From contig CP073216.1 in the NCBI GenBank assembly GCA_020342235.1, forward strand, positions 1,240,001-1,304,000: DNA of 64,000 nucleotides, in the 5' to 3' direction. The number at the start of each line of letters is the position of its first letter. The stretch's first letter is position 1. The DNA is from Saccharomycopsis phalli. Taxonomy: Eukaryota; Ascomycota; Saccharomycetes; Ascoideales; Saccharomycopsidaceae. Positions 7,440 through 62,830 of this stretch are shown in pieces. The notes beneath the pieces are model-generated. The model was not told where the DNA came from. It saw nothing but the letters and a program-made list of their open reading frames with translations, and did not search any database. The position numbers and the translations under genes were made by a program.

Positions 7440-8297
7440 CACTAATCTGAAAAACCCTACAAGCATCTACAAGCAAATATTACTTAGAGTCGCAAACCAG
7501 GACGCCTACTCCTACCCTCTCATATGAGTGTCCTAAAAGTCTTGACATGCGCACACCGTACCAAAGATTAAAGAAAGCTGCATCAAATATAGACCATGTA
7601 AAAGTGTTACCCAAGCCCAATCAGAATTGCTGGATAGCCATATTTTGACCCTACAAGGACAAAAATGGGTCCTTAATACTAAACAAACACAAATATGACC
7701 AAGAAATGGCAAAAGTTGGACACTATGAGATTACTCTAGCCCACTATAGAACTCTATGCGAAACGGATTCACCAGTTACAACAGGCAAAGATAGACTCCT
7801 ACTAGCTGAGGCATTGGTCCAAAGAAAATTGTAGCCTCGTCAACTTCCAAGTGAAAGGCTTGGTATCGAGCTCTAGTAAGTAGTTTAATCTGGACTGCAA
7901 TCCAAAGTGCCGTAGGTGCGACAATCCCTCCATATTTCATGGCTCATCATGCTTAAGTTTAGTGGTATTCACTCAGGCAATAGACAAAGACCTCACAACT
8001 AGAGAGCAGATTCGCCGCCTCTTTACCGACTCAATCAGCTCATTCCCTTTTAAAATTCTACACATTAGTGCTAGTTGGGTAGATTTTACTCAAAGGGCGG
8101 CAGGTCATAGGAGCAAGACTCCACGACCCCTTCTGAGCCATTTCTTTAACATTTGAAGATCAAGTCAAAAGTTTATCTCATTGTAAGGTTTTCTCTCGAC
8201 TCAAAATCAGCGGCGCCGTCCTTTGTTTTGCACGGTGAAACATCAATCTCGGGGGAGCCTAGTATAGCTATAGAAGTAAATAAACATTATTATTATA
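7440..8297 (+). mobile_element. LINE family 1, older copy with decayed ORF2 C-terminus
   Basis: Collinear with the recent copy at 62082-62830 (inverted) over the whole of that copy, and it extends further 5'. Translated pieces match the ORF2 C-terminal region: HYRTL, RLLLAEAL, then the CCHC-like segment CNPKCRRCDNPSIFH and REQIRRLFTDS. Several in-frame stops and frame changes break the reading frame, so it is dead. It ends with GGGAGCCTAGTATAGCTATA at 8251-8270, then AAGTAAATAAACATTATTATT. It lies just beyond the 3' end of the DRN1-like gene. Confidence 0.85.
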
Positions 8298-15441: not shown

Positions 15442-15580
15442 TGAAGGTAGAATTGGCAAAAGTATCAGTGGGTAACAGTGTTGTGTCAGGCATAATTCAC
15501 AAATTACAGCCATGGTATGAACATCATATTCTCATTTTAATTAATACTCAATGCTGCTGGACGGCATGTATATACGAATA

Positions 15581-16046
15581 ATGGGGCAGGAGGTTTGGCC
15601 GAATGGAAAACACCTCATGCCTTATGGAGGGCGCATCATGAGGTAGTTACCGGGTTCGAGCCCCACCAAACCGCCCCAATACTCAAGAAAGTCTCCAGAA
15701 AGAGCACACTACGCCTCAGAAGGGCAATACAAGGAAGTCTCGCAAACGAGCAATGAACGACCCCGACGAGTCGTGCGCCCATCGTCACGAGATTCAGCGG
15801 CCGGATAGCGCCGGCATTTAGCCGAAGGATGGCCAGGCTTCTCGCATAACCAATAGCCAGTCACGTTAAACCACTAACAACACTGCTCCCATTGAAGTTT
15901 TTCAGCCCATATAACCGTTTAGGGTTATAAAGGGTTTTCTTCAATAGAATGCTGCCTCAGGATGTTCCTGAGTGAAAATATATCTGTCGAATCACCGTGT
16001 TTCCGGAGACAATATATAGCTAAATACAGAACTAAATATACTTACT
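15581..16046 (+). mobile_element. tRNA-derived SINE with LINE family-3 tail and 12-bp target-site duplication
   Basis: A 466-bp element flanked by perfect direct repeats TATATACGAATA (15569-15580 and 16047-16058). The head is tRNA-like, with a Pol III A box TGGCCGAATGG (15596-15606) and B box GGTTCGAGCCC (15653-15663) 46 bp apart, and possible acceptor-stem pairing of GGTTTG with CAAACC. A body without known similarity (about 15670-15875) follows. The last 165 bp or so (from ACTGCTCCCATTGAAG) match the 3' end of LINE family 3, for example 58345-58175 on the minus strand, up to TAGCTAAATACAG. This is the classic design of a SINE mobilised by the LINE whose tail it shares. A T5 run at 15898-15902 could partly stop Pol III. 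The head cannot be a working tRNA gene because its arms do not fold properly. Confidence 0.85.
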
Positions 16047-16079
16047 TATATACGAATAGATTTATAATACACATACAAG

Positions 16080-36370: not shown

Positions 36371-37117
36371 TCACAATATCCAGCTATCAGTATTTTCTCT
36401 ACCAATACGTCTATACTTAGGATGCGTCTGTAGTTTTCTTTGGCGAATCCTCTTTTTGATCCGCCTCTCATGACGACCTTGTAATCGAGTGCCGTCATAG
36501 AGATTCCCCAGACAATGTCGCTTCTGCTCGTCTCTTCCTTCATCATATTCCAATATCCTTCTTTCATCGTCAAGTCTGGTTGCTATCGCGATAGCTTCAT
36601 AATAAGTCGACGGTTTCTCTCTGAGGACTAAAATCTCGAGTTTAGCGTCAAGAGATAAAATGTAATGTTCCATAATCCACGCTGAGTTGAACACATCTCG
36701 GGGATAAAGCAACACCGCAAGATATTGGAAATGATCGTTAAACTCTCGAAAAGAATGCGGGTACCCTTTGTACTCAATCATTTTGAATTCTCTACGGATT
36801 TCTTGTTCATAGTAAGGGCCAATGAATCGGGCCTCGAATTTTTTCCAAAACGCTTCATACGAGTAGTTTGATTTATTATTCTCCTGGTACATACTGAACC
36901 ATTTTTTCGCTTTTCCACGCATGCGCTTCCCAATGGTCTTAATTTTCATTTCCTCGGTCCAAGCCGAATAAACTCCTCTTTCACAAGCCATAATAAAGTT
37001 AATGGCTTGTTCGGGCAGACCCGTACCGCTGAAGGTGGATATCTTACTAGAAAATTCTGGCACATTGGGACAATCATGACCGATGTTGTCTGCATTTTGG
37101 ATGCGATGAAACAACAT
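36371..37117 (-). mobile_element. Gag-like ORF, LTR-retrotransposon fossil (gypsy-type Gag)
   Basis: An open frame of 248 codons with an ATG start. The central helical part (WTEEMKIKTIGKRMRGKAKKW, shown in part) is laid out like the capsid of Ty3/gypsy Gag proteins, with a basic C-terminus. No protease, reverse transcriptase or integrase was found on either side, so the element is incomplete; the gag piece itself looks unbroken. A likely LTR edge lies at about 37126. Confidence 0.55.
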
Positions 37118-39056: not shown

Positions 39057-39872
39057 TCAAAGCAAAGTAGACGGCAGACGAGTCTCTTCATCCTGGACCA
39101 TTAAAATCCTAATGCTTGCATTTAGCGGACCATTTTGCCTGTCCACTGGATCATTACTCACACTAGTCGTTGTAGGACGTTTGCAACAGCCTGAGGATGT
39201 GTGTTTTGCCTTGTAACAAAAGGAACACCGTGTGGTAGTAGTCGAGGGCTGTTTATTATCCACCCTTGGCCTCTTTGCCTTTCTTTCAAATCGAGAATTT
39301 TTTCTCCGCTTACCGACTACCTTGTTGACATGTATTGGAGTCGGTTGTACCCCCAATTTGACAGCAAGACGTGCTGCTTCCATCCAAGTTTTGGGATTTT
39401 GCCGTCTAATGTCTCTCATATAATGGGGCGGAATTCCCAAGATAAAGTGATTGATGAGAGCTTTCTCTGAATAATACCCATCCGGCATCTCGGAAACATT
39501 CTGTTCATACTCATTGATATACTGTTGGATGGTGTTGCCTTTCATTCTGCATTGATACAACCGAGTGAAAACGTCCCATTCATAATCATGGTGTAAGAAT
39601 CTATATTTCAACTCTTTGAAGTATACTTCCAACGAGTCGTCTTGTCTACATACCTCATAAAGAATTCGATGCCAACTTGCAGCATTTCCTCTCAAACGCA
39701 TACCAATCTCTAACAACTGTCTATCAATGGGTAGTTTATAACGATCGAGAGCACATCGAACCATCCAAATAAAATGTAAAAGGTCTGACAGTGAGTCTCC
39801 GTCTTGAAATATGGGAACTTCGCTCAACAAGTGCCCAATACGAGAGTGATCATCTTTTGCTTCCTTGGACAT
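39057..39872 (-). mobile_element. Gag-like ORF with zinc knuckle, LTR-retrotransposon fossil
   Basis: An open frame of 271 codons with an ATG. The capsid-like part (IGMRLRGNAASWHRILYEV) is followed by a basic segment and one CCHC knuckle CSFCYKAKHTSSGC. It resembles gypsy-type Gag. The gag frame looks unbroken, but no pol part follows, so the element is incomplete. It differs in sequence from the other gag pieces here, so it is a separate family. Confidence 0.6.
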
Positions 39873-41820: not shown

Positions 41821-42059
41821 ATCTGCCAGCGACGAGAAATGAAGCTGAATGGTATGTGTATATGGATCAAGTAGATGGATCAATGTGGATGTGGATCACT
41901 GTAGATATGAACCAAGTAGATATGGTTCTGTAGATATGCGTATTAAGGCCATATTTACCTTAATTCTTTCTGTTACAAGACTGAAATCCTACAATCACCA
42001 TGAGATATTTACTCAATCATTCCCTAGTCAGTTTGACATCCTAGGAACTATAGGAACGC
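41821..42059. other. 3' flank of the reductase gene
   Basis: Direct repeats around ATGGATCA / TGTAGATATG; no gene. Confidence 0.4.
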
Positions 42060-42355
42060 ACACAAAATCAGCACCAGGCCGATTAAAGTGCACCGAGACA
42101 GAACCAAGATCCTCCTCACGGAAGCGTTGCAGACCCCAAGCAATCCTCAGTTTGGCATCACAACTACGCAGTGGAAAGAGCCTCACAGACGGATTCCACT
42201 CATGGCATACACAATTCGCTTGGAAAAGTGTTTACCGACCAAAATTCAGTCCATAAACTCATTGAGTTCTACCAGAACGTGCTGGAATATGATTCCTCCA
42301 ACACATGATCAATATATAGCTAATTACAAAAATAAATATTATTGTTATTATTAAA
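42060..42355 (+). mobile_element. LINE relic, ORF2 C-terminal remnant and family-3 type tail
   Basis: Translated pieces such as KILLTEALQTP match KLLLTEALAGP of the recent LINE at 62 kb. The sequence then continues into CATACACAATTCGC, CAGTCCATAAACT and TATAGCTAATTACAAAAATA with an ATT end. It is broken by stops and frame changes. Confidence 0.65.
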
Positions 42356-46150: not shown

Positions 46151-46852
46151 CTAGTGCTTTCTACTGCAATTGTAACGTGACACGCTCCGTTTGTAGCCGT
46201 TGCCTCTTTTCCTTTTTGAACCCCCAGAGAATCGTTTTTGGGCCGATTTCCGTTTCTTGCCTGATCGATAAACTGAAAGGTGCTCAAAACGGCTTGCAAT
46301 GGTCATTGCTTCTTGCCAAGTCGAGGGTGCTTTAAGATGAGTTTTGATCTGAATTTCACGCTGCAAACCCCCGAGATATTGATAAAGTGCAGTTTCTGGT
46401 GAGTAGTATCCCGGAAGTTTTATCATATACTGTCTAAACTGATTAGAATAGTCTGCGACCGAACCTACTTGGCGATGATGCATAAAGTCCATTCGTAACG
46501 TGAATTGGTAATCTGGTGGTGGAATTGGCGGTTCCAGGTTGTATGAAGGTGGAGTGACAAACATGGCGGTAAATTCTTTCCAATATTCCAGTGGTGAAGG
46601 TGGTGAATCTAAATTGAGTGAACTTAACCAGAGCCAATGCCACGTGAGAGCAAATCCCAGTAATCGAGTGGCGATGTATATGAATTGTCTTGACTCTGGA
46701 ACTTTCAGTGACAAAAGGAAAGATTTCATTGAACGGATAAAGGTTTGCACCTGTATATTTCCGGCATCTCCATTGTAGTAAGCAACTGGGATGTCGGGAA
46801 TATGTAATGGGTCTGTGATGTTGGACGGTTGCTGAGTGATTTGGTGGTTCAT
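46151..46852 (-). mobile_element. Gag-like ORF, LTR-retrotransposon fossil, next to APC5
   Basis: An open frame of 233 codons from an ATG at 46852 (the frame is also open upstream through a minisatellite). Gag features: TFIRSMKSFLLSLKVP, YIATRLLGFALTWHW, MDFMHHRQVGSVADYSNQF, YQYLGGLQREIQIK and a Lys/Arg-rich end. It resembles gypsy-type Gag. The gag frame looks unbroken; no pol or LTR is recognised, so the element is incomplete. Confidence 0.6.
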
Positions 46853-46857
46853 AGAAG

Positions 46858-47180
46858 GATGAGGTAGAGTGAATTGGTAGAGTGAATTGGTAGAGTAAAT
46901 TGGTAGAGTAAATTGGTAGTAAATTGGTAGAGTAAATTGGTAGAGTAAATTGGTAGTAAATTGGTAGAGTAAATTGGTAGTAAATTGGTAGAGTAAATTG
47001 GTAGTAAATTGGTAGTAAATTGGTAGAGTAAATTGGTAGAGTAAATTGGTAGTAAATTGGTAGAGTAAATTGGTAGTAAATTGGTAGAGTAAATTGGTAG
47101 TAAATTGGTAGTAAATTGGTAGAGTAAATTGGTAGTAAATTGGTAGAGTAAATTGGTAGTAAATTGGTAGAGTAAATTGG
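46858..47180. repeat. Minisatellite of TAAATTGGTAG / AGTAAATTGGTAG units
   Basis: About 28 copies of a core AAATTGGTAG in a two-type mix (with and without AGAG), which builds a higher-order pattern. It lies between the gag fossil and the APC5 promoter, and reads open on the minus strand. Confidence 0.93.
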
Positions 47181-47239
47181 ATAGATGAGTAGTGGATAAT
47201 GTGGTTATGTTGAATCACAAAAAGGGTGACATATGTTAC

Positions 47240-47398
47240 CGGGTAACACAACATGTCAAAAATGACCGGGTACCCCAATGTGTTTGCCCGGGTAATAATA
47301 TATTGTCCGGGTAGCAAATATCATGACCGGGTAATATTGAATACAATCCCGGAAAACACAATGATATATCCGGGTAACATTTCGTACCACCCGGGTAA
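47240..47398 (+). promoter_or_regulatory. Array of Reb1-like sites (CGGGTAA) upstream of APC5
   Basis: CGGGTAA occurs exactly at 47240, 47289, 47328, 47371 and 47392. One-mismatch forms are at 47267 (CGGGTAC) and 47308 (CGGGTAG), and a weaker CGGAAAA at 47350. Spacing is 19-22 bp, except 27 at the first. CGGGTAA is the core recognised by the general regulatory factor Reb1 in yeasts, which clears nucleosomes and blocks read-through. The last copy is 39 bp before the APC5 start codon. Binding here is inference. Confidence 0.7.
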
Positions 47399-51526: not shown

Positions 51527-53092
51527 CTAATACATGTAATTAAAGCCAGGCGACTTATCGCCCAAAATAATCTTGGATCGTTCCGAAAGCCCCTCAAACG
51601 CCTTTTTGTATTCCGAGGTCCGCTTGCGACGATTCAACCGCACAAGATAGTAGGTGTAAACTAGCACGAGAATAATCCCAATCCCCGTCAAGACAATCCC
51701 CAAGACAATCCCCGGCTCGAAATGGTTGCCAGGACCCACCGAGGCCCAGTAACTGATCAATCCGCCAATGGTGGAGCAACTGATTTGCAAAGCCAAGCCG
51801 ATACTTTTACGAAGATGGCCGCACAAGTTCAGCGAGGCCCAGCAAAGCATGATCGGAAGAGCAGTGTAGCCACCGGAAAACAAGAGGTACGACGAGGCGT
51901 ACTTGACCTTGTCGTGGAACATGAAGTTAAAGTTTGTAGAGATTGCAATTCCCGAGATGAGCACTAGAACTACGTTTGCCACGACAAACGGCATTCTCAT
52001 TTTGAACTTGTCCAGGAGGAACGACACGATATTGGACCATACGAACGCGGCGACCCACGGCAAGATTGCCAATTTTTGGTCGGAGATTTGCTCGTAGCCA
52101 ATCAAGAAGAAGAGAAGCGGACTGATCAAAGTGATTCCAAACACCACAAACGAAATGCAGAAGCAAATCACCGCGGGAAGCCAGACGAGCGGGTCCAAGC
52201 ACACCAAGAGGCACTCCTTGATGGAGAAGGTCAAGTTGTAGCCCGATTTCCCGCTGAACACCTCTAATTTCTTAATGATGAAGTAGGCCTCGTCGTCATT
52301 GAGGAAGCGGGCGCCTTCAGGGAAGTCTGGGAACGTAAAAAAGATGACGAAGGAAGAGGTCATGGTGATGGACCCGCAAATGATGAGCAACCATCTCCAG
52401 GTTTCGAGGCCCGATTTTCCGTTCAAATGGGCCGTACACGCGTAGGAAATCAACGCGCCAACAAGCCCTCCAATACACGAAGCCGAGTAGATGAGCGTGA
52501 AGCGACGTCCGGACTCGAGTTTGCTGTAGAAGTGGGCCAAGATGTAGTATGAGGCAGTCTCAGAACCGGCTTGAAAAAGCCCGTGCAAGACCTGGAGGAA
52601 GCAGAAGACGCCAAAGGTCTTTGCATAGGCGGCCGATAGTCCGATGGCCCCGTATATTAGCACGGAAATTGCGATCCAAAAGTGGGCACGGATGCGTTTG
52701 ATGAGAAAGTTGGAGACGACCTGGCAGAGGCAGTAGGGCACGAAAAACGAGGCCAATGCACCTGAGTATTCAACCTGGGAGATCAGGAACGACTGGGTGA
52801 CCCCTGTTACGAGAAGCAAGCCGAAGGCGGCTTTATTGAGAAACGAAACAAACGTCACGAGCATCAATGCCGGAACTAAAAGAAAGTCGATTTTGCGCAT
52901 CAAGACGGTCTCGTCCAACTCATACTGGTCAGCCATCTCCTTGATCTGTAACTGCTTCAGCTCCTCCGACAAATAATCCATGTCCATGCCGTCGGAAACA
53001 TTTGGGTATATTGGCATGGCCAGAAGCTCCACAGTGTGGCTCTTGGAATCCTTGTTGCCCTCGATCAACGAATCAGACATGTGCGATATCAT
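51527..53092 (-). CDS. MFS permease, anion:cation symporter (Dal5/Tna1) family, copy 1
   Basis: 521 residues with 12 predicted membrane segments at the plasma membrane. The family imports organic anions such as allantoate, nicotinate, biotin or pantothenate with protons; the substrate cannot be read from sequence. After a hydrophilic N-terminus (about 70 residues) come KIDFLLVPALMLVTFVSFLN (first membrane segment), RAHFWIAISVLIYGAIGLSA, GLFQAGSETASYYILAHFYS, GRRFTLIYSASCIGG and, after the central loop start, FTFPDFPEGARFLNDDEA, all typical of this family. The C-terminus ends ILGDKSPGFNYMY. A close paralogue lies at 60022-61563. TATATAAA sits only about 22 bp upstream of the ATG. A CACGTG is at 53185-53190. 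No intron. Confidence 0.9.
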   Translation of the reverse strand: MISHMSDSLIEGNKDSKSHTVELLAMPIYPNVSDGMDMDYLSEELKQLQIKEMADQYELDETVLMRKIDFLLVPALMLVTFVSFLNKAAFGLLLVTGVTQSFLISQVEYSGALASFFVPYCLCQVVSNFLIKRIRAHFWIAISVLIYGAIGLSAAYAKTFGVFCFLQVLHGLFQAGSETASYYILAHFYSKLESGRRFTLIYSASCIGGLVGALISYACTAHLNGKSGLETWRWLLIICGSITMTSSFVIFFTFPDFPEGARFLNDDEAYFIIKKLEVFSGKSGYNLTFSIKECLLVCLDPLVWLPAVICFCISFVVFGITLISPLLFFLIGYEQISDQKLAILPWVAAFVWSNIVSFLLDKFKMRMPFVVANVVLVLISGIAISTNFNFMFHDKVKYASSYLLFSGGYTALPIMLCWASLNLCGHLRKSIGLALQISCSTIGGLISYWASVGPGNHFEPGIVLGIVLTGIGIILVLVYTYYLVRLNRRKRTSEYKKAFEGLSERSKIILGDKSPGFNYMY

Positions 53093-58174: not shown

Positions 58175-58490
58175 TATAATAATAATAATAATAATATTTA
58201 TTTTTGTATTTAGCTATATATTGTCTCCGGCAATACGGTTATTCGACAGATATATTTTCACTCAGGAACATCCTGAGGCAGCATTGCTGTTGAAGAAAAC
58301 CCTTTGTCAACCCTCATTTGGTTGCTTGGGATTAAAAACTTCAATGGGGGCAGTTATATTGTTGGTGCTTGGTGCCTGTATGGAATCTAATATGTCATCA
58401 ATGCGCGATAGAATTCTAGCTTCTAAGAGCTCTGGGCATCGTAGGTCATGTATGATGGAGGGGGAGTGAATCCCGAAGAAATTTCTTGAA
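58175..58490 (-). mobile_element. LINE family 3, best-preserved 3' end in the window
   Basis: On the minus strand the ORF2 C-terminus reads HSPSIIHDLRCPELLEARIL and RIDDILDS, with a His/Cys pattern like the family-1 LINE. The tail ACTGCCCCCATTGAAG to TAGCTAAATACAAAAATAAA and a run of ATT follow. This tail is the reference for the SINE at 15581. It inserted into or next to the LTR-A fragment. Confidence 0.8.
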
Positions 58491-60021: not shown

Positions 60022-61563
60022 CTAATAAACATAGTTAAACTCTGGCGATTTATCACCAATGGCAATCTTGGCTCGCTCGGAAAGCCCCTCATAATGCTGC
60101 TTGTACTGGGCCGTCCGCTTCTGGCGGTTCAATCGAACCAAGTAGAAGAAATATACAATCAAAAGGACTACGGTCAAACTGGTAATGCCAAGCCCAACGT
60201 AAATGCCTAGCGTGAAATGATGCGAGTGTCCGACAAACGCCCAATAGCTCACGAGTCCGCCGATGCTGGAGAAGCTGATTTGCACTGCCAATCCGACGCT
60301 CTTTCGAAGATGGCCACACAAGTTCAACGACGCCCAGCAAAGCATGATTGGAAGCGCGCAGTAGCCGCCAGAAAAAACCAAGAACGACGAGGCGTACTTC
60401 ACATTGTCCTGGAAGTGCACTGTGGTTTCTGCGATTAGCATGATCCCGCCAACCAACACCAACAACACGTTTCCCACCACAAACGGCATGCGGATCTTGC
60501 ATCTGTCCAGGAAGTACGACCAGAAGTTTGACCAGCAGAATGCCACGACCCACGGCAAGATCGCGTGGCGCGGCTCCTGGACACCTTCAAACCCAAGAAG
60601 AATGTAGAAGAGCGGGCTGATTAGCGTGGCGCCAAAGACAAAGAAGGAGATGCAGAAACAGATGATCGCCGGGAGCCAGATGAGCGGGTCCAAGCAGACC
60701 TTGAGCGACTCGACGAGGGTGAAGTTCAAGTTGTAGCCGGACTTTTCGCTGAATAGTTCCAACTTCTTCACAATGTAGTAAGACTCGCCGTCGTTGAGAA
60801 ACAGCGCGCCCTCTGGGAAGTCCGGGAACGTAAAGAAGATGACCCCGGACGAGGCCATGGTTATTGCTCCACAGATGATGAGAAGCCACCGCCAGCTCTC
60901 GAGCCCGGACTTCCCGTCCAAATGGGCCTCGCAGCCGTACGACACCAACGTGTTGACGAGCCCTCCAATACATGATGCCGAGTAGATGAGGGTGAAGCGG
61001 CGCCCTGCCTCGAGTTTGCTGTAGTAGTGGGCCAAGATATAGTACGCTGCAGTCTCTGAGCCAGCTTGAAAGAACCCGTGCAACACCTGGCAGAGGCAAA
61101 ACACACCAAACGACTTGGCGTAGCCCGAGGCCAAGCCGACTGCGCCGTACAACAACACGGAGATTGCGATCCAGAAGTGGGCACGGACACGTTTGAGAAT
61201 GAAGTTGGACACCACTTGCAAGAGACAGTAGGGCACAAAAAACGAGGAGAGCGCGCCCGAGAACTGGAGCGGGGTGATTGCAAGCGACTTGTCAATGCCC
61301 AAGACGAGGATCATGCCAAACACGGTTTTGTTGAGGAACGACACAAACATCACGAGCATGAATGCCGGCACGAGGAACAAGTCGATCTTCAACATCAACC
61401 TCTTCTCGTCCAACTCGTGGACCTGTGCCATTTCCTTGACCCGCAACTGCTTCAGCTTGTCGGACAAGTACTCCGTGTCGAGCCGCTCGGTATCAGACGG
61501 ATACACCGGCATCACCTGGAGTTCTGTGTCATTGTACTTATCTCCAGCCAAAGAAGATGCCAT
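60022..61563 (-). CDS. MFS permease, anion:cation symporter (Dal5/Tna1) family, copy 2
   Basis: 513 residues from ATG at 61563 (MASSLAGDKYNDTELQVMPV). Closely related along the whole length to the product of 51527-53092: same N-terminal YLSDKLKQLRVKEMAQVHEL block, RAHFWIAISVLLYGAVGLAS, FQAGSETAAYYILAHYYSKL, GRRFTLIYSASCIGG, LPIMLCWASLNLCGHLRKS and C-terminal DKSPEFNYVY. Twelve membrane segments are expected. Differences cluster in segments that face the transport path (for example FGMILVLG versus FGLLLVTG), so substrates may differ. TATAAAAG lies 27 bp upstream of the ATG, the same tight spacing as in copy 1. Both are on the minus strand with about 7 kb of relics between them. Confidence 0.9.
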   Translation of the reverse strand: MASSLAGDKYNDTELQVMPVYPSDTERLDTEYLSDKLKQLRVKEMAQVHELDEKRLMLKIDLFLVPAFMLVMFVSFLNKTVFGMILVLGIDKSLAITPLQFSGALSSFFVPYCLLQVVSNFILKRVRAHFWIAISVLLYGAVGLASGYAKSFGVFCLCQVLHGFFQAGSETAAYYILAHYYSKLEAGRRFTLIYSASCIGGLVNTLVSYGCEAHLDGKSGLESWRWLLIICGAITMASSGVIFFTFPDFPEGALFLNDGESYYIVKKLELFSEKSGYNLNFTLVESLKVCLDPLIWLPAIICFCISFFVFGATLISPLFYILLGFEGVQEPRHAILPWVVAFCWSNFWSYFLDRCKIRMPFVVGNVLLVLVGGIMLIAETTVHFQDNVKYASSFLVFSGGYCALPIMLCWASLNLCGHLRKSVGLAVQISFSSIGGLVSYWAFVGHSHHFTLGIYVGLGITSLTVVLLIVYFFYLVRLNRQKRTAQYKQHYEGLSERAKIAIGDKSPEFNYVY

Positions 61564-62067
61564 TGGTATCAATTTTGCTTGCCATGCTGCCTTTTATAGG
61601 GGATTTGAGTTGGGCGCTAAGGCAAGATGTACCCTGCATGGGGCGGCAGCACAGGGCATACATCAAATTAGCGAGTTTGGTCTGCATGTAGACTGATTTG
61701 GCTAGGCCGGTCGGTTATTCTGAATGTTGATTGTGGATGATTGTGGATTGTGGATTGTGGATTGTGGATTGTGGATTGTGGATGATAGTGGATTATGGAT
61801 GATTGAGTAGATATTTCATAGCAAAATAAAATTCAAACGTAAAATGGAGCCGTGGAGCATTCATCAAGTCTGAATTGAAGCATGGAACAAATTTTTCAGT
61901 GAGCTGCAACATGCACTCATAATAAATTTCTCCACAGGACCAATTCAAGATACGAGTGTAGAACGTTGTCACATTGAAATGGTTTGATAGTGTGTAATTA
62001 CTAGTGGAGATGGTATTTCTACGGATTATCTTGGAGTATCAAGACGATTCGAGTCCAGTGGATGAAT
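61564..62067. other. Promoter side of permease copy 2, with a GATTGTGG repeat
   Basis: 61728-61795 contains GATTGTGGATT in six or so tandem copies. A GATTCGAGTCC at 62047-62057 looks like a Pol III B box but has no partner. No gene. Confidence 0.5.
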
Positions 62068-62081
62068 GAATTGGCTAATAT

Positions 62082-62830
62082 ATATTATAATAATAATAAT
62101 GTTTATTTACTTCTATAGCTATACTAGGCTCCCCCGGAGGGTGAGATTGATATTTCACCGTCTAAAAAACTAAGGACGGCGCCGCTAATTTTGGAGTCGA
62201 GAGAAAACCCTTTGAATGGGGATAAAAACTTTCGACTTGATCTTTAAGGAACTGTTGAAGAGAGATGACTCAGAAAGAGCTATGGAGTCTCGCCCCCCGG
62301 GGGGGACTACCTGCCCGGCCGCCCTTCTTGTGGTGCTGTAAAAAGAAAAAGGAATCTACCCATCCAGCACTAACGTGTAGAAACCTATAAGAGAATGAAT
62401 TGATTTTGCGTCAGTAAAGAGGCGGCGAATCTGCGCTCGGGTTGTGAGGCCTTCGCCGATTGTTTCCTGAGTTCTGAATATCTCTAAACATGGGCATGAT
62501 AGGTCATGGAATATTGTTGGGGAGGGATTGTCGCACCTAGGGCACTTCGGATCACACTCAGGATTGAATTGTTTCTTGATGGTACATGATACCAAACTTT
62601 TTCCACTTAGAAGTTGGCTTATCAGGCTCAAAATATTCTTTGGGCCAGCTAAGGCCTCGGTTAGTAGGAGTTTATCTTTAGCGGTGGTAACCACCGGTGA
62701 ATCCGTTCCGCGTAGAGTTCTATAGTGGGCTGGGAGAGTAATCTCGCCAGTGTCCACTAGTTTTTGCCATTCCTGGGTCATCTTTGTGTTTATTTGGTCT
62801 TTAAGGGCCCATTTCTTTCGTCCCTGCAGG
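62082..62830 (-). mobile_element. LINE family 1, recent 5'-truncated copy with 14-bp target-site duplication
   Basis: 749 bp flanked by GAATTGGCTAATAT at 62068-62081 and 62831-62844. On the minus strand the ORF2 frame is open from the truncated 5' end to the stop at 62356, so at least 150 C-terminal residues remain unbroken. They include KDKLLLTEALAGP, a CCHC-like CDPKCPRCDNPSPTIFHDL then SC, and TTRAQIRRLFTDAKS. The 3' UTR has G+C-rich runs (GGCCGGGCAGG, CCCCCCGGGGGG) and ends GGGAGCCTAGTATAGCTATA, AAGTAAATAAAC and ATT repeats. The intact frame and perfect duplication mark it as the youngest LINE here; a full-length source copy should exist elsewhere in the genome. Confidence 0.92.

Follow-up and report, generated by a model that had tools for sequence, protein, structure and literature searches.

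Pairs of a SINE and a LINE are familiar from animals and hardly described in budding yeasts. UnaSINE and UnaL2 of the eel have a common 3′ end and short terminal repeats, and their shared tail forms a stem-loop; the HAmo SINE of carp and its partner LINE likewise have common 3′ ends. In these stringent-type pairs, as in the yeast element described here, the 3′ end of the SINE comes from the partner LINE. Among budding yeasts, the LINEs of Candida albicans bear the name Zorro.

Papers identified by PMC number are cited here for the portions of their text that were available. A partner LINE is reported for the HAmo SINE of carp (PMC2873951). In filamentous ascomycetes, MgSINE, Foxy, SINE2-1_BG and AfuSINE2 are tRNA-derived SINEs; MgSINE is 472 bp long and has ca. 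100 copies, Foxy has ca. 160 copies, and the target-site duplications of AfuSINE2 measure 4–14 bp (PMC5063351). Budding yeasts are known to harbor LINEs, namely Ylli in Yarrowia and those of Candida albicans, and there has been speculation on the spread of tDNA in Yarrowia; Ylli has poly(A) tracts, and the available text identifies no target-site duplications for it and describes no SINE family (PMC5014426).

For SINEs in budding yeasts, two tallies were found. The genome paper of Saccharomycopsis phalluae, a yeast that comes from diseased mushrooms of the genus Phallus, lists 0.06% SINE and 3.91% LINE and names Repeat Masker as the method (PMC8468998), and five SINEs were counted in Brettanomyces bruxellensis (PMC6493715). 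In the available text, the first tally, for the same species as ours, is a percentage only and the second a count only, both without family, structure or partner. The chromosome paper of S. schoenii deals with LTR elements, and its main text as available does not contain the word SINE; the available portions of PMC6416283, PMC5499181 and PMC6508603 contain nothing on yeast SINEs. A search of the open-licence literature found no described SINE family in Saccharomycotina. As far as that search reaches, budding yeasts, though among the foremost genetic systems, are without a characterised SINE family.

Here we describe a SINE copy in a 64,000-nt stretch of S. phalluae DNA (contig 5, positions 1240001–1304000), referred to below as the window. 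In agreement with a budding-yeast host, the CCT7 protein encoded in this genome is 84% identical to that of its nearest named relative, S. crataegensis, and 91% identical to an unnamed protein. The element is a copy of a dispersed young SINE family and was inserted by retrotransposition. The family is apparently new but of a known type, in a lineage that lacks a characterised one as far as the literature search reaches. Compared by description alone, the SINEs of filamentous ascomycetes live in other hosts and have a tRNA-derived head, as the yeast SINE may; their LINE partner is unnamed in the available text of PMC5063351, whereas the yeast SINE shares its 3′ end with a resident LINE that we call LINE-A. 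A young SINE/LINE pair in a 14-Mb genome offers a small, countable system for the birth of SINEs, template choice by LINE enzymes, tail turnover and damage to the host, and it shows that SINEs are compatible with a compact yeast genome.

Structure of the SINE Copy

The SINE copy in the window has the following parts.

15569–15580, + strand: 5′ target-site duplication, 12 bp, TATATACGAATA, read from the sequence
15581–15582, + strand: AT, two extra nucleotides separating the duplication from the element
15583–16046, + strand: SINE copy, 462-nt core (15583–16044) plus tail
15583–15680, + strand: tRNA-like head (tRNA comparison, folding)
15596–15606, + strand: A box of a putative Pol III promoter, TGGCCGAATGG (sequence only)
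15653–15663, + strand: B box, GGTTCGAGCCC (likewise)
15681–15829, + strand: body, matched in the genome search only together with SINE copies
15830–16039, + strand: 3′ part from the LINE-A 3′UTR (sequence match)
15898–15902, + strand: run of five T's (T5) within the LINE-derived part that may act as a weak Pol III terminator
16039–16046, + strand: terminal repeat tail of the (A)CTTA type, its length varying from copy to copy
16047–16058, + strand: 3′ target-site duplication, letter-for-letter equal to the 5′ copy TATATACGAATA

A preliminary description of this DNA had proposed a perfect 12-bp target-site duplication and a head with good A and B boxes, and both are present exactly at the positions listed. 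It had also placed the element at 15581–16046. The 3′ end holds; the true start is 15583, because the start common to the copies is GGGGCAGG and the preceding AT is extra. Other duplication-bearing copies have 0–2 extra nucleotides before the element, and three have an extra piece of head. The A box lies 13 nt after the element start, and the A-to-B distance is 57 nt, compared with 55 nt in the tRNA-Leu(UAA) locus L091. The element is non-coding, its longest ATG frame having 48 codons. The body had been described as unrelated; it has no Rfam match. Rfam scans of the whole 64-kb window and of the element returned nothing, and ARAGORN called no tRNA in either.

A Dispersed Family of Young Copies

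The genome (14,148,124 bases, 8 contigs) was searched with the 466-nt element, giving at least 43 BLAST matches, since 40 of the 318 candidates from the first look were scored. Thirty-four of these are ∼100% identical, one is 97% identical and five are older copies at 76–95%; one older copy is split into two pieces, and two further pieces are LINE-like tail only. We count 35 young copies, of which 34 have a full head and one is 5′-truncated, and 5–6 old ones. Young copies occur on all 8 contigs; L070, with a head one nucleotide short, was counted as full, and L073 begins at nt 25. Pattern searches gave concordant numbers: the head pattern had 34 matches, all of them exact even at a tolerance of 3 mismatches (reversed control, 0), the SINE-type tail pattern had 34 exact matches and 3 with 1–2 mismatches, and the body pattern had 34 exact matches and 7 with 1–3 mismatches, one place (C7:1028034) being found by the body pattern alone. 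By our own arithmetic, ∼40 copies make up ∼0.13% of the genome.

The young copies are nearly identical to each other. Over the first 452 nt, 30 of the 35 showed no differences; L070 and L071 have 1 each, L072 has 2, and L073 has 0 over 438 nt, whereas L074 contains small indels and reaches 97% identity. Their tails are variable runs of ACTTA, CTTA or TCTTA units, followed by the duplication. A duplication of at least 10 bp (range, 10–18 bp) was found in 32 of the 35, as against 6 of 1190 mismatched 5′/3′ flank pairs. The length is mostly 11–14 bp and is 12 or 13 bp in 21 copies; the remaining copies are L003 (8 bp), L004 (7 bp) and L009 (a 5-bp match off the edge). Among the 561 pairs that can be formed from the 34 full copies, none has a common 20-mer in the 3′ flanks, and one has a common 20-mer in the 5′ flanks, both of its members carrying a repeated head piece. 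These distinct flanks indicate that no copy carries the flank of its source copy beyond the tail.

The preliminary description had pointed to a genome query as a check, with many copies that have the same edges and different flanks defining a family, and with a single copy, or flanks repeated along with the element, speaking instead for a tRNA pseudogene and a LINE joined by chance. For such a junction, with a truncated LINE and at one place, one could cite the head, which does not score as a tRNA in ARAGORN or Rfam, and the abundance of LINE-A-type tails (255 places at up to 3 mismatches, SINEs included). It is refuted by the 35 young copies, whose edges agree and whose flanks and duplications are their own, and we regard its probability as practically nil.

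The near-zero divergence of the copies indicates a recent burst, and SINE activity at the present day is likely. Repeats can be homogenised, and near-identity might in principle mean that older insertions were made uniform by the assembly or by gene conversion. Against this, the cores are identical while tails, duplications and extra 5′ nucleotides vary by copy, and 2 of 30 insertion sites lie inside known gene families, the frames being otherwise open over the fetched flanks. We consider homogenisation very unlikely and retain a recent burst as the explanation.

Origin of the Head

The head (element nt 1–98) has a G+C content of 58%. Its predicted fold is a single closed stem and not a cloverleaf (−42.7 kcal/mol, z = −3.25, with 1 of 200 shuffles as good), and neither ARAGORN nor Rfam, at E values up to 1, called a tRNA in it. 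For comparison we assembled 37 tRNA loci, comprising 20 located through D-arm patterns, minus L104 and L105, in which ARAGORN found no tRNA, plus 19 fetched from the at least 64 Rfam tRNA matches in the genome (63 of 806 candidates scored); the host genome paper counts 232 tRNAs (PMC8468998, available text).

The best match to the head among the 37 loci was tRNA-Leu(UAA), with 18 of 20 nucleotides identical at element nt 5–24, in an alignment that takes in 2 nt of the tRNA 5′ flank (CAGGAGGTTTGGCCGAATGG versus CAGGAGGGTTGGCCGAGTGG). None of 500 mononucleotide shuffles scored as high against all 37 tRNAs; an earlier best score, obtained with the first 18 tRNAs, was equalled by 1 of 300 dinucleotide shuffles. 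On the B-box side, 14 of 14 nucleotides are identical to tRNA-Lys. The likeness to tRNA is confined to ∼20 nt at the A box and these 14 nt at the B box. The head probably derives from a long-arm tRNA, most likely tRNA-Leu, and would have been strongly altered since. The tRNA-like character given to it in the preliminary description is backed by the boxes and the tRNA-Leu(UAA) match and finds no counterpart in the fold or in the tRNA calls.

The T5 run at 15898–15902 could cause premature termination of Pol III transcripts. Where a T run can be seen by eye downstream of the tRNA genes of the comparison, it is T6 in 7 cases and T5 in 3.

LINE-A and the Shared 3′ End

Element nt 248–457 align with the LINE-A 3′UTR at 82% identity over 216 columns (E = 8e-54), which confirms an earlier claim that the tail matches a resident LINE. 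Identity climbs toward the 3′ end, with 13/16, 32/50, 39/50, 48/50 and 46/50 in successive blocks and 94/100 over the final 100 columns. The shared tail terminates all nine long LINE-A copies. The window itself contains LINE-A pieces, found by window match, at these positions.

42047–42353, + strand: LINE-A 3′ fragment, three pieces at 91–95%
58179–58384, − strand: LINE-A 3′ fragment, 98.5% identical to copy L061
58381–58474: further LINE-A piece, 95.7%

LINE-A was read in copy L061 (C4:508700-515300), in which ORF1 has 487 codons and ORF2 has 1124. ORF2 contains RVT_1 (E 1e-29) and Exo_endo_phos_2 (7e-11) domains, and ORF1 gave no Pfam match. A genome search for RVT_1 returned 91 matches, nine of them in the LINE-A score class (107.2–107.5 bits), and ORF2 is open across 1124 codons in five of the nine long copies. 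Searched as a protein, ORF2 was at best 30% identical to other, mostly unnamed, proteins. The 5′ end of all nine copies is the same A-run followed by the ATG of ORF1 (L061:1335-1350, L079-L086). LINE-A and Ylli are both endonuclease/reverse-transcriptase LINEs of budding yeasts; unlike Ylli, LINE-A has (ATT)n ends and duplications of 12–15 bp in six of nine copies, the other three lacking a 10-bp duplication. In the six copies with a recognisable duplication, it ends at the A-run or within a few nucleotides of it, so that the LINE-A 5′UTR would consist only of a few A's, in varying number.

The count of 255 tail places given above was obtained with a 24-nt pattern of the shared tail. Set against nine copies with full RVT_1, it suggests that most of the some 200 other places are truncated or decayed LINE-A. 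Young SINEs are full length in 34 of 35 cases.

Since the 3′ part of the SINE is LINE 3′UTR, the element might be a non-autonomous LINE derivative, internally deleted or SIDER-like, with an incidental head and Pol II transcription. Three observations oppose this reading. The sole match of the LINE-A locus 5′ of nt 248 is a 12-nt word (E 0.37), LINE-A has almost no 5′UTR to give, and the A and B boxes stand at tRNA-Leu spacing, the A box coming 13 nt after the element start. A LINE derivative is thus improbable, to about the same degree as homogenised copies, and a tRNA-type SINE with an acquired LINE tail remains the preferred reading.

Another question is whether LINE-A is the chief mobilising partner. 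That the SINE was moved mainly by a different LINE, or by several, would fit its terminal repeat, which is unlike that of LINE-A, and the diverged tails akin to that of LINE-A that the genome contains. Of the LINE ends that were compared, only LINE-A and related tails matched. Fragments 3′ of six other RVT_1 loci contained no such tail (best E 0.035), in a comparison in which L108 and L112 gave no long frame and L107 is the only one of the six that is clearly another LINE end. We judge a different chief partner to be unlikely, though slightly less so than a LINE derivative, and favor LINE-A.

The shared tail of the eel pair forms a stem-loop, whereas no consensus structure was predicted for the yeast SINE and LINE-A, whose terminal repeats also differ. 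RNAalifold gave 0 consensus pairs over 14 aligned tails out of 19 distinct ones collected, and we accordingly make no claim to a conserved stem-loop signal in the shared tail. Folded alone, the SINE tail has a 7-bp hairpin.

Several further features of the LINEs were noted. L079 and L080 (C1:16 kb and C1:1.62 Mb) have the same 5′ flank but differ in the 3′ flank, a pattern suggestive of recombination among LINE copies. L107 (C4:439600-441800) belongs to another LINE, with a different 3′UTR and then (ATT)n; tails resembling that of L107 by eye occur in the window, e.g. at 8250–8296 and 62090–62136. LINE-A-type tails at C5:1449177-1449337 and C6:604557-604638 also lie ∼0.27 kb from the SINE copies L018 (opposite orientation) and L017 (same orientation), respectively.

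Proposed Mechanism of Mobilisation

We consider it very probable that this is a young SINE family that is transcribed by Pol III from its own boxes, uses the LINE-A machinery in trans and inserts by target-primed copying. Pol III transcription, use of the LINE-A protein in trans and present activity are what we infer from the sequences. Transcription by Pol III from the A and B boxes is strongly suggested by the anatomy of the element. As the SINE RNA would end in a copy of the LINE-A 3′UTR, the LINE-A endonuclease/reverse transcriptase could take it up, and capture through the last ∼100 nt is suggested by the shared 3′ sequence together with the similar size of the duplications. The enzyme would then nick the target, and target-primed reverse transcription would begin in the terminal repeats and leave duplications of mostly 11–14 bp. 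Copying of this kind from the repeat tail is indicated by the variable tails, the duplications and the lack of source flanks.

Terminal Repeats and Repeated Heads

The terminal repeats of the two partners differ, being (ATT)n in young LINE-A and (A)CTTA in young SINEs. Among old SINE copies, L077 (79% identical) has an ATT-type tail, and L075, L076 and L078 have CTTA-type tails. Apparently, the SINE exchanged its terminal repeat for another in the course of the family's history.

In L019, L026 and L072, 25, 18 and 23 extra nucleotides, respectively, sit between the duplication and the element. In each of these 3 of 34 full copies, the extra sequence is a second beginning of the head, which ends at about nt 16–25. 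The repeated heads would be accounted for if the reverse transcriptase switched template to a short 5′ fragment of SINE RNA, and also if it jumped into the interior of a second SINE RNA. A more specific scenario combines these features. In an active pair, the LINE reverse transcriptase would take the RNA by its last ∼100 nt despite the replaced repeat and, on reaching the RNA 5′ end, would jump onto 16–25-nt 5′ fragments of SINE RNA, cut within the head in a manner reminiscent of 5′ tRNA fragments, to yield the repeated heads. We offer this scenario tentatively and rate its chances at well below even.

Insertion Sites and Neighborhood

Of 32 sites, 19 have T at position −2 and 31 have A or T at position +1. 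We propose no target motif, because bases of the tail and the duplication overlap, the boundary had been placed so as to make the duplication as long as possible, and by eye no common motif is seen at six LINE-A sites.

To view the sites as empty, flanks of 1.5 kb per side were joined for 30 of the 35 copies. A frame of at least 100 codons crosses the empty site in 8 of the 30, and one of at least 300 codons in 3 (L005, L008 and L028). The piece after the site of L005 matches cytochrome P450, and L028 has aspartyl protease matches on both sides of the site; for L008, one flank piece had no protein match. Thus, one of the 30 sites lies in a P450-like frame and one in an aspartic-protease-like frame. 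L004 lies close to a masked stretch and was left unclassified. Gene models cover 46.56% of the host genome (PMC8468998, available text), and the small number of the 30 sites that fall in frames, set against this figure, suggests that the surviving SINE insertions are mostly intergenic.

Two other features of the window were recorded. Ty3 capsid/gag matches occur in three frames within 11 kb, all on the − strand (36371–37117, 39057–39872 and 46151–47317). Two long frames on the − strand, 51527–53092 and 60022–61572, lie 8.5 kb apart and resemble one another, two blocks of 300 and 233 nt having 74% identity at the DNA level; by eye, they appear to be a pair of transporter genes.
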